From: Colwellia sp.
GTDB taxonomy: Bacteria > Pseudomonadota > Gammaproteobacteria > Enterobacterales > Alteromonadaceae
Direction: 5' to 3'
Assembly (NCBI GenBank): GCA_013215295.1
Contig: JABSOZ010000003.1
Location: forward strand, 124,001 to 188,000
DNA length: 64,000 nt
Positions 1 to 47,732 of the stretch are shown one piece after another. Position 1 is the first letter of the stretch. Each line of letters begins with the position of its first letter. Both the position numbers and the translations under genes were made by a program. The notes below the pieces were generated by a model. That model was not told where the DNA came from, searched no databases, and saw only the letters and a list, made by a program, of their open reading frames with translations.

Positions 1-61
1 AAACCTGAATTTCTGAAATGATCACTAATGCTAATTAGGATTACGTAACGGCCTTAGTCAT

Positions 62-778
62 TTATAGTCCACACACGTCAACTCTATGCCGCATTAGAAA
101 ATCAAAGTTTGGTTGATCACTCATAGGTGCCTTAAATTTGTTGTTTTTTAACAGGTTACTTATTACTGGATCAGATTTTTTTGATAAAACTATATTGTAA
201 TCAGAATCCAATCCAAAATACCCTTTATCAAATAGACCATCGTGATGTCGACACAGCAAAATTGCATTCGTTGGGTTCAGGCGATTTTCACTATCCATAG
301 TCCAGGGAACAATGTGGCTACAAACTAACAAATCACTTTGATGAATATCACAAAAAGCGCATATCCCTGAGTAATTTTCTAATACAATACTTCTTAAAAC
401 TGACTGACCAATTCGCTGCTTCGTAGTGCGATCTATTTCAGTAATAGCTTTTTGTTCAAAAATTTTATGGTTGTTACTCTTGATAGCTTCCTTTGCTAAT
501 AATTCAACCTCATTAAACTCTTTAACTTTATAAATTGCTAATCTAAATAGGTCGGAATAATCATCCAAGTTCACTTCATTCTGTAATAGACCTTTATGCT
601 CTCCTTTAATGCCATAATGGTGAAGGATTTCCATTGCTACAAAACCACCACCTTTCGCTGGGGCTGGTAGCCCAAGGATATTTCGCTGTATAGTCCTGTG
701 GCTTTCACTATTGATCAAGTAAGCACGTAATACTTTTATAATAATGTCTTCATTAAACTCGTCTAAATATTTCGACAT
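62..778 (-). CDS. HNH endonuclease domain protein (integron cassette)
   Basis: ORF contains CAFCD...VCSHIVPW...NPTNAILLCRHHDGLFDKGYF, an HNH_2-type zinc/HNH motif; flanked by attC-like sequence. Confidence 0.8.
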   Translation of the reverse strand: MSKYLDEFNEDIIIKVLRAYLINSESHRTIQRNILGLPAPAKGGGFVAMEILHHYGIKGEHKGLLQNEVNLDDYSDLFRLAIYKVKEFNEVELLAKEAIKSNNHKIFEQKAITEIDRTTKQRIGQSVLRSIVLENYSGICAFCDIHQSDLLVCSHIVPWTMDSENRLNPTNAILLCRHHDGLFDKGYFGLDSDYNIVLSKKSDPVISNLLKNNKFKAPMSDQPNFDFLMRHRVDVCGL

Positions 779-792
779 GAGGTCTCTATCAT

Positions 793-882
793 ATAATGCC
801 GCATTAAGCAGCTAATAATTGTTGGCTGTATTGTGTAGTTAAACAGATCAAATTGTTAGTAGTCCCGCTTGAACAGCTTATA
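793..882 (-). repeat. attC-like recombination site
   Basis: Minus strand TATAAGCTGTTCAAGCGGGACTACTAACAATTTG...CAGCCAACAATTATTAGCTGCTTAATGCGGCATTATA; imperfect inverted repeat between two ORFs, degenerate terminal core (ATTATA). Confidence 0.65.
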
Positions 883-1645
883 TTTCACTTGAATTCACTG
901 CTTGAATATTATTATTTATTATTATTTGTTTAGTTGCCGGTCTCGCTTTATTCTCTCGAGGAAAATGCCATAAATTGAAACTTTGATTGGGGTAAGTATC
1001 ATAATGAAGTTTGTCCCAACTTAGCATATTTGCCATTTTAATAAATGCAGCCTCTTTAGCTCTAGATAATGTTAGGGCGGGGTTGAGAAATTTCATGTAA
1101 CCAGAATTAACGGCGCCTGTAAGAATATCTACAACTTGTAAACCTAAGTGAGCTTTAGAATCATGCATCTCAACTGTACCAACGGATTTTCTTTTTCCCA
1201 GTTGGGACAACATGTTATTTGCAATAATACCTATAACTTCATCATTTCTTTTATATTTATCACATTTTTGATCGATATAGACGGTCAAGTTAGAGCTGGT
1301 TTGTTGAGCAACCGACTTAACTAATTCTGTGTATGTTTTATAAAATGCTGTTTCACGATTTTTCTTCCAATTGTTGTATTTCCTCTTTTCTACGATTATC
1401 GCATGAAAACAACAATTGCTCTTTAATACCATATTGAGGAGGTCTATACATATGTTCGATTGACCCGCACTATTTTTGATTTTTGACCACTTTAACTCGC
1501 CGACAATTCCCCACTTCTTTTTTAGGTTCAAAACATAGTCATTGAATTCTTCGGTTTTGTCGATAGGTACGCAAAGCAAACCTATCGAGTAACACTTGTC
1601 ACTTCCTGTAGTTCCGCTCTCATCTCCATATACAAGATAATCCAT
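878..1645 (-). CDS. DUF3800 domain-containing protein (integron cassette)
   Basis: N-terminal YGDESG motif, internal YIDQKCD, and C-terminal DSKAHLGLQVVDILTGAV typical of DUF3800. Confidence 0.8.
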   Translation of the reverse strand: MDYLVYGDESGTTGSDKCYSIGLLCVPIDKTEEFNDYVLNLKKKWGIVGELKWSKIKNSAGQSNICIDLLNMVLKSNCCFHAIIVEKRKYNNWKKNRETAFYKTYTELVKSVAQQTSSNLTVYIDQKCDKYKRNDEVIGIIANNMLSQLGKRKSVGTVEMHDSKAHLGLQVVDILTGAVNSGYMKFLNPALTLSRAKEAAFIKMANMLSWDKLHYDTYPNQSFNLWHFPRENKARPATKQIIINNNIQAVNSSEI

Positions 1646-1668
1646 TACACCGTACTCTCCTTGAAATA

Positions 1669-1742
1669 TAACGCCCAGCTAACAGCTAACAGCTAACAGC
1701 TAACAGTAAACTGTTATTTGTCCTTTTAAGCAGCTTATAGGT
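1669..1742 (-). repeat. attC-like site with internal 7-bp tandem repeat
   Basis: Minus strand CCTATAAGCTGCTTAAAAGGACAAATAACAGTTTACTGTTAGCTGTTAGCTGTTAGCTGTTAGCTGGGCGTTAT; terminal GGGCGTTAT core. Confidence 0.75.
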
Positions 1743-1746
1743 GAAT

Positions 1747-2229
1747 TTACTGATCACTAGCTTCTTCACAAGCCTTAGATAGTGCAGCAGCTAACAACGC
1801 AATTATATTAATAAATTGCTGCCTTGGTTCCAGTTTTTTATGACTTTTAACTTCAAGCCCCAATTCAGTATGAACGTATAAAGTATTTTGTTGGAGCATT
1901 TGCTTCTCGTTGCTATCAAGAGTTTCATAAAAATTTTTAACATCACTTTTATTTAGTTCATCTCTAAGCTCGTGAGCAAATTTATTTCTTAATTTTCCGA
2001 GAGCGTTTAAGCTACTTTCGAATCTTGGTTGAAGACCGAAAGCTAATGCTATTTGCACAACTTGAAAATATTCAAGCTTGCTTGCCTCTAAATATGCTTC
2101 ATTGACTATGAACGATTTGATTAGCTTACGTAGGAAATTTTCAACTACGATATGAGTTCTTATTACTATGCCTAAATCATCTTCACTTTCAAATGACTTA
2201 AACAAAGGCTCCAATTCCATAGTATTCAC
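1747..2229 (-). CDS. HEPN/MltR-like helical protein (integron cassette)
   Basis: All-helical 160 aa protein with VVENFLRKLI and LRNKFAHEL; R-x4-H motif resembles HEPN. Confidence 0.5.
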   Translation of the reverse strand: MNTMELEPLFKSFESEDDLGIVIRTHIVVENFLRKLIKSFIVNEAYLEASKLEYFQVVQIALAFGLQPRFESSLNALGKLRNKFAHELRDELNKSDVKNFYETLDSNEKQMLQQNTLYVHTELGLEVKSHKKLEPRQQFINIIALLAAALSKACEEASDQ

Positions 2230-2230
2230 C

Positions 2231-2327
2231 TAACGCCCTAATAAGGGGCAAAAATTTGTTGGTTAAAATGTTGAGTAACGAAAACAGTAAACTGTTTTTT
2301 GTCCTTATTAATTAGCTTGTTATAAAT
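2231..2327 (-). repeat. attC-like recombination site
   Basis: Minus strand TTATAACAAGCTAATTAATAAGGAC...GCCCCTTATTAGGGCGTTAG between two cassette ORFs. Confidence 0.8.
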
Positions 2328-2331
2328 CAAT

Positions 2332-2910
2332 TTACACCTGTGTCAGTAGTTTAACAGCTAGACGTGTGATGCGGAAAATACGGTTGCCTTGAGAGCTATA
2401 ATCTAAAAGTAAAAGGCCTAAATTAACAAGCTGAGTTAAATCATCTTCGACGAATCTAGGCTCCTTTATTTCAAGGCTCCCTTGAGTGTCCATAAATAAG
2501 AAACTAGTTCCATCAAATGTATTTGATTCAAGAAACGAGCTACCTCCCGTAGAGTTAAGCTGGTTGATTATTGATATCGCTTGCTCAGATAGTTCAATAT
2601 TGGGAGCTAAAGCATTTGAGATCTCTTTAAAACCACCAATAGAAGATGAGAGAACCAGTAAAGTTTCATCTAAAGCGGAAAGTTTTTGGAGAACTACTTC
2701 ATGGTTTAGATTTAAAAGTGACTTTATACCTAGGCTTAAAAGATGGTTAGACATAATCTCGTCTAATAAACTTTTATGCCTCTTTTCATCTAACCAGCTA
2801 ACAAACTCCTTGTACTCATCTTCTGAGGCAGAATTCCTTTCAGATTTGAAGTTACTTAATAGCCCTACAATAGTAGCGAATGTTGTTGCCGCAGTTAATA
2901 CTTCCACCAA
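2332..2910 (-). CDS. hypothetical protein (integron cassette)
   Basis: Open frame of 192 aa flanked by attC sites; AAGGAGAG-like RBS upstream. Confidence 0.6.
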   Translation of the reverse strand: MVEVLTAATTFATIVGLLSNFKSERNSASEDEYKEFVSWLDEKRHKSLLDEIMSNHLLSLGIKSLLNLNHEVVLQKLSALDETLLVLSSSIGGFKEISNALAPNIELSEQAISIINQLNSTGGSSFLESNTFDGTSFLFMDTQGSLEIKEPRFVEDDLTQLVNLGLLLLDYSSQGNRIFRITRLAVKLLTQV

Positions 2911-2925
2911 TCTCTCCTTGATTTA

Positions 2926-3030
2926 TAACGCCCAAATAACAGGCTAAGTAATGGTTGGCTAAAATTGTGTAGTGAAACGAAACGTAGCCAACTGTTACGT
3001 GTCTTTGTTGGTTTTCTTCTTAGTACAACT
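2926..3030 (-). repeat. attC-like recombination site
   Basis: Minus strand ...ACACGTAACAGTTGGCTACGTTTCGTTTCAC...TTAGCCAACCATTACTTAGCCTGTTATTTGGGCGTTATA; paired TTGGCTA arms. Confidence 0.8.
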
Positions 3031-3033
3031 ACA

Positions 3034-3576
3034 CTAACCAACTCTTATTCTACGGTCAATCTCCCTTTTAACGGCACCTAGCGCATACGATTTATCTCCA
3101 CCCGCAACTGCCCCCATTGTCTGGCGATTACAGTTCTCACAGATAAATTTAGTTTCACTTCTATCGTAGAAACTACTGTGGCATGTACTGTCATCGTAAA
3201 CCAATGTTGCATCACATGTAGGGCAATAGCACCAAAGGTTACTTATGTTTACCCCTCTCCAATCCCATCTCCAATTAACATCAAATATGTTATCCGACAC
3301 GTAGTCTTTATGTTCAGGCTGTTTAAACATGTCCGCAATATTTATTAGAATAACTACAGAGCCTATAAAAGCTAAAATAAATAATAAAAGGAAAAACCAA
3401 CCTGAAAAAGAATAATCTTGAAACATCGAATCCCAGCACCAAATACAAAATGACCAAATGGATTTTGCCGCGGTAATCGATAATTCGCGGACTTGAGGGA
3501 TTAAAAGTAAAATAACGCCAGCTACTACAGAGGCAATAACCCCGTTCCTAATGCTTTTAATCGAATTATTACTCAT
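3034..3576 (-). CDS. two-TM membrane protein with C-terminal zinc-ribbon-like domain (integron cassette)
   Basis: Two hydrophobic stretches (VIASVVAGVILLLIP; WFFLLLFILAFIGSVVILI), then CPTCDATLVYDD...FICENCNRQ. Confidence 0.6.
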   Translation of the reverse strand: MSNNSIKSIRNGVIASVVAGVILLLIPQVRELSITAAKSIWSFCIWCWDSMFQDYSFSGWFFLLLFILAFIGSVVILINIADMFKQPEHKDYVSDNIFDVNWRWDWRGVNISNLWCYCPTCDATLVYDDSTCHSSFYDRSETKFICENCNRQTMGAVAGGDKSYALGAVKREIDRRIRVG

Positions 3577-3591
3577 AACATTCCTTGTGTA

Positions 3592-3686
3592 CTAACGCCC
3601 AAATAAGGGGCTGATAATAGTTGGCTAAAATGGGTAGCGGAGCGAAACCAGCCAACTGTAATTTGTCCCAATTGAATAGCTGTTAT
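3592..3686 (-). repeat. attC-like recombination site
   Basis: Plus strand TAACGCCCAAATAAGGGGCTGATAATAGTTGGCTAAAATG...AGCCAACTGTAATTTGTCCCAATTGAATAGCTGTTATG; near-identical to the site at 4104-4200. Confidence 0.85.
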
Positions 3687-4087
3687 GTTGCAATTGCAAC
3701 ACTGTATTCTTTGTTTTTAAGTTTAACTAGTTGTGACTTACTTAAACTGTCTTGGTTCGTTAAATTCTTAGGCTCAACAAAGATTAAAAATGTGCGTTTA
3801 TCTTTTGTATTCCAACCGAAAGTGACAAATTTTTTGTCTGCTAAAAAACTCTGATTACCATCTTTATAATCGGCAACAGGTAAAGAACCATTTGGGTCAA
3901 TTGACTCTGTAGCAGTTACATGAATTAAACCGATACAGCTTTTAACTAAAACTTGATCTTTATGTCCAGCTGAATTAGTTACATTCTCAAGGATTTCTGC
4001 ATCTTTACCTAACGATAATAAATGCTCTACCACTAAATTAGCTAAACATTTTTTACGTTGTTGAACTGAAGCTCCAGTTATTCTCAT
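3683..4087 (-). CDS. hypothetical protein (integron cassette)
   Basis: ORF track start at 4168 lies inside the attC; ATG at 4087 (MRITGASVQQRKK...) has an AAGGAGA RBS just after the attC core. Confidence 0.65.
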   Translation of the reverse strand: MRITGASVQQRKKCLANLVVEHLLSLGKDAEILENVTNSAGHKDQVLVKSCIGLIHVTATESIDPNGSLPVADYKDGNQSFLADKKFVTFGWNTKDKRTFLIFVEPKNLTNQDSLSKSQLVKLKNKEYSVAIAT

Positions 4088-4103
4088 ACATTCTCCTTGC
4101 GGC

Positions 4104-4200
4104 ATAACGCCCAAATAAGGGGCTGATAATAGTTGGCTAAAATGTGAAGCGGAACGAAACCTAGCCAACTGTTAGCAGCCCCGCTTAATTTTCTTATAGG
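4104..4200 (-). repeat. attC-like recombination site
   Basis: Minus strand CCTATAAGAAAATTAAGCGGGGCTGCTAACAGTTGGCTAGG...TTTAGCCAACTATTATCAGCCCCTTATTTGGGCGTTATG; long imperfect hairpin. Confidence 0.85.
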
Positions 4201-4226
4201 TGTTACCTAAATACCAAACTTAAAAA

Positions 4227-5009
4227 TTAATCCTCTTGAACCTGTTCAAAATTAAATTTAACCTTTGAAGGTTCAAAAATTGCACGCTCAATTACTTCTG
4301 CCGAATCTAAATCGAACAGTGCAATATTGTGTCCGTCAGCTAAAGAGCTTTTGTACCCAATACCATCATAACCCTTAGATTTGATAAACTCTGAAATAAT
4401 CTGTGTCGGTGTATAATCAGATTTTAAATCTGATGTTTTAGTTGGTTTTGAAAATGCGTTGTCGATATCTAACCAAACGGCTTCGACAATCTTTGAAGCA
4501 GACGGTTCCTTAAAATAAAACTTTTTGTTGGTTTTTCCATGGTTAACAGAAAAATCTATAATCCTTAAATCTCTAGATAATTTAAAATGACCAAGAGAAA
4601 TAATTGACCCAAGCCAAGGCCTAATCTCTGACATAGCAGTTTCTTTATCCGTTGCTACATATAAGCACGGTATACCTTTCGAGTTGGCTCTTCCTTCGGA
4701 GGCGCTGAAAGGTAACGGCTTCATTCTGTTCGAATCATACGGACAGGGCCAGTCCTCTATATGGACTTCCTCATTAGTATCAGGATCAGTCTGATAAAAA
4801 GGCATCAAATCATGTCCTTCTTGGGCTCGCCATACAGATGTATCTTTGTATAAGGTAAGAACTCGTTTTTGACAAGTATTGTTGATGGCAGTAAGAAAAT
4901 CTTTGGATTCATTACTCATAATATAACGAAATTTGGTATTTACAGATTGGCTAAAATCCCAATAGCTACGCCAAGACTTGAAACTCATCACTAGATCCTT
5001 TTGTAACAC
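4227..5009 (-). CDS. RES domain protein, putative NAD+ phosphorylase (integron cassette)
   Basis: VWRAQ...PLPFSASEGRANSKGIPCLYVATDKETAMSEIRPW...LRIIDFS...DYTPTQIISEFIKSKGYDGIGYKSS RES-family motifs. Confidence 0.75.
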   Translation of the reverse strand: MLQKDLVMSFKSWRSYWDFSQSVNTKFRYIMSNESKDFLTAINNTCQKRVLTLYKDTSVWRAQEGHDLMPFYQTDPDTNEEVHIEDWPCPYDSNRMKPLPFSASEGRANSKGIPCLYVATDKETAMSEIRPWLGSIISLGHFKLSRDLRIIDFSVNHGKTNKKFYFKEPSASKIVEAVWLDIDNAFSKPTKTSDLKSDYTPTQIISEFIKSKGYDGIGYKSSLADGHNIALFDLDSAEVIERAIFEPSKVKFNFEQVQED

Positions 5010-5508
5010 CTAACACCTAACAGCTTATTAGACGAGCGAATATCTACTTTCCAACAGGTCATTAACTGTCTGATTTATTGATAATACAAATGAAATTACC
5101 TTTATATTACTGTTATATCAAGTGTTTATTGATTTCCTTTAATGCAATTTTGGATAATACGCGTTTTTATCTCGTTTTCTCTGGTGAAAGAGGATAGCTT
5201 TCTTTATTAACTGAAAATATGTATTACAAGTTTTAGGGCAAATAATTTGAAGGAAATGTATCAACTTCGCGCATGAAGAAGTCATTAGCACCTTATTGAT
5301 CTTATGCCAGATAGACTAATCTAAGCCTCGTAGCCATAAGTAATTTAAAACTACTAATCGCCTAACGTCTTTCATTTCTACGCAGTTTTAGGTTTTCAGG
5401 AATTACAGCCACTAAAAACGCTAAAAGTATAAATTTCGCGCAAACGAATAGACCCGAATATATAAAGTCGGTGGGTTTGAAGTATTTGATTGATTTGTAA
5501 GAGAAAAG

Positions 5509-5585
5509 TGGTGGCCCCTCCCTGACTTGAACAGGGGACCTGTCGATTATGAGTCGAATGCTCTAACCAACTGAGCTAAGGGGCC
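5509..5585 (-). tRNA. tRNA-Ile2 (anticodon CAU, lysidine type)
   Basis: Minus strand GGCCCCTTAGCTCAGTTGGTTAGAGCATTCGACTCATAATCGACAGGTCCCCTGTTCAAGTCAGGGAGGGGCCACCA; full cloverleaf, encoded CCA; acceptor GGCCCCU resembles ileX-type tRNA rather than elongator tRNA-Met. Confidence 0.9.
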
Positions 5586-47289: not shown

Positions 47290-47732
47290 AAGGCCAAATT
47301 TTTAGCACCTACTACCCTCTAGATAATTCCGCAAAGTGGTTTAACTTGTCACAGGTAAAATATGAAATATTGCACTAACTACCTTTAACTTTGTGCACTA
47401 AAAAGTCATGCTTCTGCGATTATGTGAACCACTGCTTTGGTAGTTTAGTGTCGAGTGAGAGCTGCTACTTTGTCAGAGATAACGACAAAGATGACTTTGT
47501 TGGAATGGAGTACTATACAGTCGTAAACAAGCTGGCCCTAAAGTGCAACAAATTATGGAGGTGTTATCGAAACAGAATCTAATCAAACCTGCTCATTTAG
47601 CTGTTATAGCTAATGTTTCTTTTGTGGTGAGTTTTCCTTTCAAATCTAATTATCTTAATGACGCAATGTAAGACCAGCTGCGGTTAGATAAATTTAATGT
47701 ACCGCTAATTGAGCTAAATCAGGTTATGAAAA

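Follow-up and report, generated by a model that had tools for sequence, protein, structure and literature searches.

The window analysed here is a 64,000-nucleotide stretch of the draft genome of a Colwellia sp. (G000; 5.77 Mb, 52 contigs), comprising positions 124001-188000 of contig C23, and lies inside that 642-kb contig. Coordinates without a prefix refer to window positions, Cn to contigs of G000, other G numbers to the genomes compared with it, and L numbers to loci. We found that the left end of the window, up to a tRNA-Met gene, contains an integron cassette array on the minus strand that starts from an attI core preceded by a conserved leader and has no integron integrase gene (intI) beside it (Table 1). 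Six minus-strand attC sites, four strong and two degenerate, lie within positions 793-4204, and successive cassette open reading frames (ORFs) are each followed by one of them; no recognisable attC was found past the last gene. The cassette contents (a RES domain, DUF3800, a weakly HEPN-like protein, an HNH nuclease, and three unknowns) are consistent with toxin- or defence-like cargo, and chromosomal integrons are often reported to carry such cassettes. A search of a phage collection with the array gave no match. We also considered whether Pseudoalteromonas pPBSW1 has the RES gene in cassette form too; judging by gene neighbourhood, we rejected this, as the homologue there sits among ordinary chromid genes.

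Table 1. Features of the cassette array and of the adjacent tRNA-Met gene, in the direction of the array
Feature	Position	Strand	Remarks
tRNA-Met(CAT)	5509..5585	-	Island integration hotspot in the genus
3' 45 bp of tRNA-Met	5509..5553 (C23:129509-129553)	-	Exact direct repeat of C23:110847-110891, 18.7 kb to the left; island ends
attI leader (conserved region upstream of core)	5018..5288	-	Putative Pc (cassette promoter) region; modelled part 5018-5174, weaker similarity to ~5288
attI crossover core TCTAATAAGCTGTTA	5018..5032	-	Exact; 5' end of array; matches core beside intI in relatives
Cassette 1 ORF	4227..5009	-	RES domain, RES-type toxin-like; PF08808, 67 bits
attC of cassette 1	4104..4204	-	R1, 91.8 bits
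Cassette 2 ORF	3683..4087	-	No family over curated cut-off
attC of cassette 2	3592..3690	-	R1, 87.3 bits
Cassette 3 ORF	3034..3576	-	Predicted membrane protein with Cys motifs; no family over curated cut-off
attC of cassette 3	2925..3027	-	R1, 77.6 bits
Cassette 4 ORF	2332..2910	-	No family over curated cut-off
attC of cassette 4	2230..2327	-	R1, 79.5 bits
Cassette 5 ORF	1747..2229	-	Weak HEPN/Abi-like similarity; RiboL-PSP-HEPN, E=2e-5, under curated cut-off
attC of cassette 5, degenerate	1668..1745	-	R1, 22.1 bits, E=0.007; tandem TAACAGC repeat
Cassette 6 ORF	878..1645	-	DUF3800; PF12686, 48.6 bits; PADLOC candidate defence family PDC-M04A, E=5e-26
attC of cassette 6, degenerate	793..888	-	R1, 38.7 bits, E=2.5e-7
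Last gene, HNH endonuclease (restriction-like)	62..778	-	PF13391, 41.4 bits; PADLOC HNH, E=4e-29

The attC sites were detected with a covariance model (R1) built from four window sites and twelve others from G000 (n=16), aligned to the canonical attC fold, used here as R box, 3-nt spacer, L box with extrahelical bases, and terminal stem. Across the 16 aligned sites, 88% of 463 base-pair cells are paired compared to 77% in shuffles, both sides have changed at 14 pairs, and the covariation score is 0.266 compared to 0.083 in shuffles; the score fell to 0.10 or below once the 3' partners were slid. R1 was partly trained on the four strong window sites, and other lines give independent support. 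The R' pattern KCCYSTTAKKNGGGCGTTA (two or fewer mismatches) has 88 matches in G000, while its reversed control has 2. Furthermore, a blastn search against plasmids found the window attCs to be approximately 78% alike to DNA under the blaVMB-1 cassette of a Vibrio integron, which adjoins an annotated integron integrase. The attCs at 3592 and 4104 share 90% identity over 68 nt, and R1 found nothing comparable to the window sites in 80 kb of neighbouring or C16 sequence. These data confirm that the window attC sites are real and that the cassette array is genuine.

We found no intI similarity or remnant at positions 1-5508, and hence none between the array and tRNA-Met. Clusters of attC sites lacking integron integrases (CALINs) are defined by attC sites without intI and are described at scattered loci in the relevant parts of PMC12444791 and PMC9229058. 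With six same-strand attC matches and no integron integrase nearby, the window array has the hallmarks of a CALIN. Of the marks of a complete integron, it lacks the adjacent divergent intI and possesses, judging from its sequence, the attI at the 5' end. For a third mark, a Pc promoter driving the cassettes, a sigma-70 scan gave no candidate on that strand, but the leader is conserved. The minus-strand boundary sequence, GTCTAATAAGCTGTTAG, is identical at 17 of 17 positions to the intI-side attI core in G002 and at 16 of 17 positions to that in G004. Among the 71 intI loci with enough upstream sequence, 51 contain a TCTAATAAGCTGTTA-like core (two or fewer mismatches), with a median distance of 234 nt to the intI start, across many genera. 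Since the same core recurs near intI in these loci, we identify the 5' end of the array as an attI crossover site.

The region upstream of this core is conserved as well. Since RNAalifold supported essentially no RNA structure in the leader (-0.84 kcal/mol), we modelled it by sequence only (R2; 158 positions), and R2 matches the modelled part of the window leader with 114.7 bits; by blastn, the window leader is similar to other leaders over up to 277 nt. These data indicate that the window array starts with a genuine attI core and leader, so that it is more than a bare attC cluster, and the conserved leader may act as a promoter (Pc) for the first cassettes. A preliminary description of this stretch had proposed attC-like hairpins in the gaps between minus-strand ORFs, a near-identical pair at 3592 and 4104, and an integron-type array without an adjacent integrase. 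Our data bear out all three, including by the attC covariance search it had proposed, which matched the gaps. The boundary sequence that it reported at the 5' end is also as described; the repeat GTTAGGTGTTAGGTGTTAC is more than the edge of the array, as it forms the first-cassette side of the attI crossover core.

We found that the leader, a stretch of approximately 160-270 bp before the core, is present in 11 copies in G000 including the window (R2), namely on C6, C8, C17 (twice), C22, C23 (window), C24 (twice), C34, and C35, with a divergent copy on C49. None of the 11 copies lies beside intI. All of them are followed by a same-orientation attC at 302-904 nt, about one cassette length, while the chance expectation for an attC so placed is approximately 1% per random site and strand (approximately 138 attCs in 5.77 Mb). 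Conversely, 12 multi-attC clusters have a 5' end away from contig ends; nine of them start at a leader and three (on C15, C38, and C52) do not. The origin of integrase-less arrays is unsettled, with integrase loss, translocation, and random-site insertion all under discussion. Most multi-attC arrays with a visible 5' end start at an attI leader, an observation that speaks for dispersed attI platforms rather than random insertion. Insertion of cassettes by IntI has been reported at poorly defined genomic sites, termed attG (Loot et al. 2024, as cited in PMC11389934), and such a site might by chance have lain on an island here. We regard this as scarcely credible for the window array, as attG insertion implies a boundary free of attI homology and this array has at its 5' boundary an exact attI core, preceded by a leader common to ten other arrays and to intI-linked attI sites.

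In related genomes, the leader is found directly upstream of, and divergent from, intI or an intI pseudogene (G027, G115, G035, G119, G003, G410, and G312), with attCs following it. Four of these genomes (G027, G115, G119, and G410) contain additional leader copies elsewhere without intI. The closed genome G027 has two orphan leaders with at least 10 attCs after each and no intI in the 19-kb loci, and the closed genome G115 has one orphan leader followed by 11 attCs, again in a 19-kb locus that lacks intI. Our data indicate that the leader is the attI region. Outside the core, the G000 leaders are just 40-55% identical to most intI-linked attI regions, and it could be argued that the leader is a promoter-bearing repeat that has nothing to do with attI and happens to precede arrays. 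We consider this unlikely, given that the core coincides with the crossover point and is found some 234 nt from intI in many genera, and that the orphan and intI-linked leaders of G027 are 96% identical. The window leader is nearer to leaders of other species (84% identity to G285, a different genus) than to those of G000 itself (75% or less), which fits horizontal arrival, with low tree support. We rejected the intI-linked attI regions of G001 and G003 as direct parents of the leader, as the similarity is weak (67% identity over 92 bp for G003; no match at the cut-off for G001). Positions 5416-5491 were likewise rejected as a dispersed repeat, being single-copy in G000.

We next turn to the integrase that could act on these sites. 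The only intact intI in G000 lies at C16:269-1246 and encodes 325 aa (TIGR02249, 448 bits; cut-off 265). It faces the contig end, which lies approximately 200 nt past its attI core. G000 contains 138 attC matches at E≤0.01 (R1), mostly on C8, C24, C40, C42, C43, and C49, contigs that break inside attCs. The intI genes of G001, G002, and G003, which are homologous or related to that of C16, directly adjoin their arrays, and therefore the array of the C16 intI was probably cut off by assembly. A degraded second intI is present at C17:295-724 (L142), and its attI and following sequence are the same as those of the intact C16 copy. We also observed LexA boxes resembling CTGTAtataaATACAG before intI, approximately 200 nt upstream of the attI core, at L201, L214, L213, L144, C16, and L223. 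L223 is an intI-less copy in G027, and its retained LexA box hints at derivation from an intI-linked region.

Contig breaks inside attCs (C8, C40, C42, C43, and C49), together with the end of C16 just past attI, raise the question whether the window array belongs beside the C16 intI and was misjoined. This is highly improbable, as the array is internal to a 642-kb contig, has unique flanks and the signature of a tRNA island, and begins with a leader unlike the C16 attI upstream region. Moreover, the orphan leader arrangement is not an artefact of draft assembly because the closed genomes G027 and G115 show the same.

The window array lies on a putative genomic island. Between the direct repeats of the tRNA-Met 3' end (Table 1) we found genes for a 2047-aa FG-GAP/PKD protein, a 450-aa tyrosine integrase, a VapE-domain protein, and a serine recombinase, as well as the array. 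The integrase is a phage-type tyrosine recombinase encoded at L003:13986-15338. A tRNA 3'-end repeat of 45 bp at both ends, an encoded site-specific integrase, and other islands at the same tRNA in congeners are all features of tRNA-integrating islands; the present island differs in that its cargo is an integron platform with cassettes. At the same tRNA-Met, G001 and G003 have segments (8.5 and 15.2 kb, respectively) flanked by the same kind of repeat and with other contents. This tRNA-Met is an island hotspot of the genus, with direct repeats of 45-46 bp and cargo that differs per genome. We propose that the island moves, or once moved, via its own tyrosine integrase at tRNA-Met, in which case the array would have been carried along. 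The suggestion in the preliminary description that the array is a piece of a larger integron extending left does not hold, since leftward lie island genes up to the second copy of the tRNA-Met 3' end. Its alternative, a cluster lacking an integrase, is correct for the neighbourhood of the array and incomplete for the genome, which has an intact intI at the end of another contig. The comparison of relatives at this tRNA revealed other islands or nothing comparable, rather than the same gene order. In G115 and in G250, tRNA-Ser is likewise followed immediately on its 3' side by an orphan module, and a usefully long repeat of the tRNA 3' end was not found at either. The notion that every module is tied to a tRNA was dropped, as the position immediately 3' of a tRNA is limited to the modules of the window, G115, and G250.

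Overall, we consider it likely that the window array is an orphan attI platform on an island, consisting of a leader, six recognisable cassettes, and one terminal gene without an intI of its own, and that it is usable in trans by the host IntI. Cassette insertion at the window attI would have been the work of an IntI supplied in trans, for which the C16 enzyme is now the most likely candidate, or of an intI that once stood in cis and has since been lost; the leader would supply the promoter for the first cassettes. Mobilisation of CALINs in trans is an accepted idea in the sections of PMC12444791 and PMC11389934 that treat it. To the CALIN picture, our data add that attI and the region upstream of it are retained in many such arrays.

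Several observations weigh against this reading. The C16 attI upstream region differs from the window leader, with the core alone in common, which leaves the use of the orphan attI by the C16 IntI putative. On the strand of the array, a sigma-70 scan predicted no promoter in the leader. Regarding the island, the far copy of the direct repeat lies 7 kb from the island integrase, and the stretch bounded by the repeats may be composite rather than one element. Positions 5451-5508, approximately 58 bp just 3' of tRNA-Met, are common to G004, itself without a second repeat, which indicates that the history of the island exceeds one clean insertion. Recombination at the window attI and mobility of the island are both inferred from sequence, and G000 is a draft in 52 contigs.

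Could the window array instead be a plain CALIN formed by deletion, where a complete integron once stood here and lost intI, leaving attI and the array behind? CALINs are generally held to arise from integrase loss or translocation, according to the account of their origin in PMC11389934, and in its favour there are leaders beside decayed intI in G003 and G312, as well as the decayed intI on C17. However, positions 1-5508 hold no intI remnant, and around the other orphan leaders in the examined set none was found up to a distance of 1.5 kb, even though the leaders are conserved. Furthermore, approximately ten separate losses in one genome, with attI kept each time, would be less economical than dispersal of attI modules. 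We thus view deletion as possible and clearly less probable than an orphan attI platform used in trans.

The proposed orphan platform can be compared with known arrangements. Like CALINs, the window array has two or more attCs and no neighbouring intI, and CALINs are thought to be mobilised in trans; unlike them, it has at its start an attI core with a conserved leader, neither of which is part of the CALIN definition. Xanthomonas CALINs (PMC12444791) and Shewanella CALINs and single attC sites lacking integron integrases (SALINs; PMC9229058) likewise comprise attC clusters at several places on the chromosome that are not next to intI, and the descriptions of them in the consulted sections of these papers include no 5' attI leader. 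G000 resembles the sedentary chromosomal integrons of Vibrio in its IntI family (TIGR02249), in uniform attCs like the Vibrio cholerae repeats (VCRs), and in having large arrays elsewhere. It differs in that the window platform lacks intI and that the chromosome carries approximately ten further orphan platforms at scattered positions rather than a single one. In class 1 and class 2 integrons, attI pieces displaced from intI occur as delta-attI-type cassettes and are, in the portion of PMC12901181 that covers them, still recognised by IntI. Those are partial attI sites that replace attC downstream of an ORF, whereas the window has a full-length attI region upstream of the first ORF and of the whole array, and its cassettes keep their attCs. 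A search of the literature available found no paper on Colwellia integrons. If the platforms work in trans, one integrase would serve approximately ten of them, with the first cassettes expressible at each, and at least one platform, that of the window, rides on a tRNA island.

We asked whether the modules share ends beyond the leader. A conserved element, GTTATCGATACAAAATCTAATCC...GCTAATGTC, closes several arrays and directly abuts the last attC at 13 of the 30 loci with a match. Of 18 leaders, 7 have an inverted GCTAATGTC-like motif (one or no mismatch) between 190 and 330 nt upstream of the core, compared to 1.2% in shuffles; this motif was chosen after some of these sequences had been seen. 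The window array has only a doubtful match to these elements at either end. A tentative extension is that the attI of Colwelliaceae is a dispersed module (a leader and few cassettes, sometimes with a GTTATCGATACAAAATCTAATCC...GCTAATGTC end and the inverted motif on the leader side), spread over the chromosome and tRNA islands, and loaded or reshuffled in trans by the single host IntI. Should this be so, many expression-competent integron platforms would be run from one integrase.

Related sequences were observed beyond the arrays themselves. A repeated element of approximately 70 bp, GTTATCGATACAAAATCTAATCC...GCTAATGTCTCnnnTGTGGC, is present at positions 47567-47640 (+) of the window and at C17:65731, C24:4076, C24:1015, C52:122919, C23:364508, and other sites. 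The GTTATCGATACAAAATCTAATCC element has 14 copies in G000 and up to 29 in a congener, approximately half of the examined copies abut an attC, and it is tentatively a post-array sequence or a transposon end. Next to an orphan attI module on C24, upstream of its leader (C24:8870-9000; L152), are about five tandem repeats of approximately 22 bp like ATGTAATTAGGTGGCAAAACTG, which resemble the ends of tni/Tn7- or IS21-type transposons. On C38:7042-8939 (L161), two attCs lie directly beside a phage-type integrase 33% related to that of the window island, possibly a further island with cassettes. Lastly, insertions were found exactly in the attI core. The inserted sequence in G001 (L147, near 10618) leads into a gene for a second tyrosine recombinase. 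An identical AGACTATGGCGTCAATAG... end is shared by the insertions at L291/L292 (Pseudoalteromonas denitrificans) and at L199 (G005), which belong to two different genera, suggesting mobile elements that target attI.

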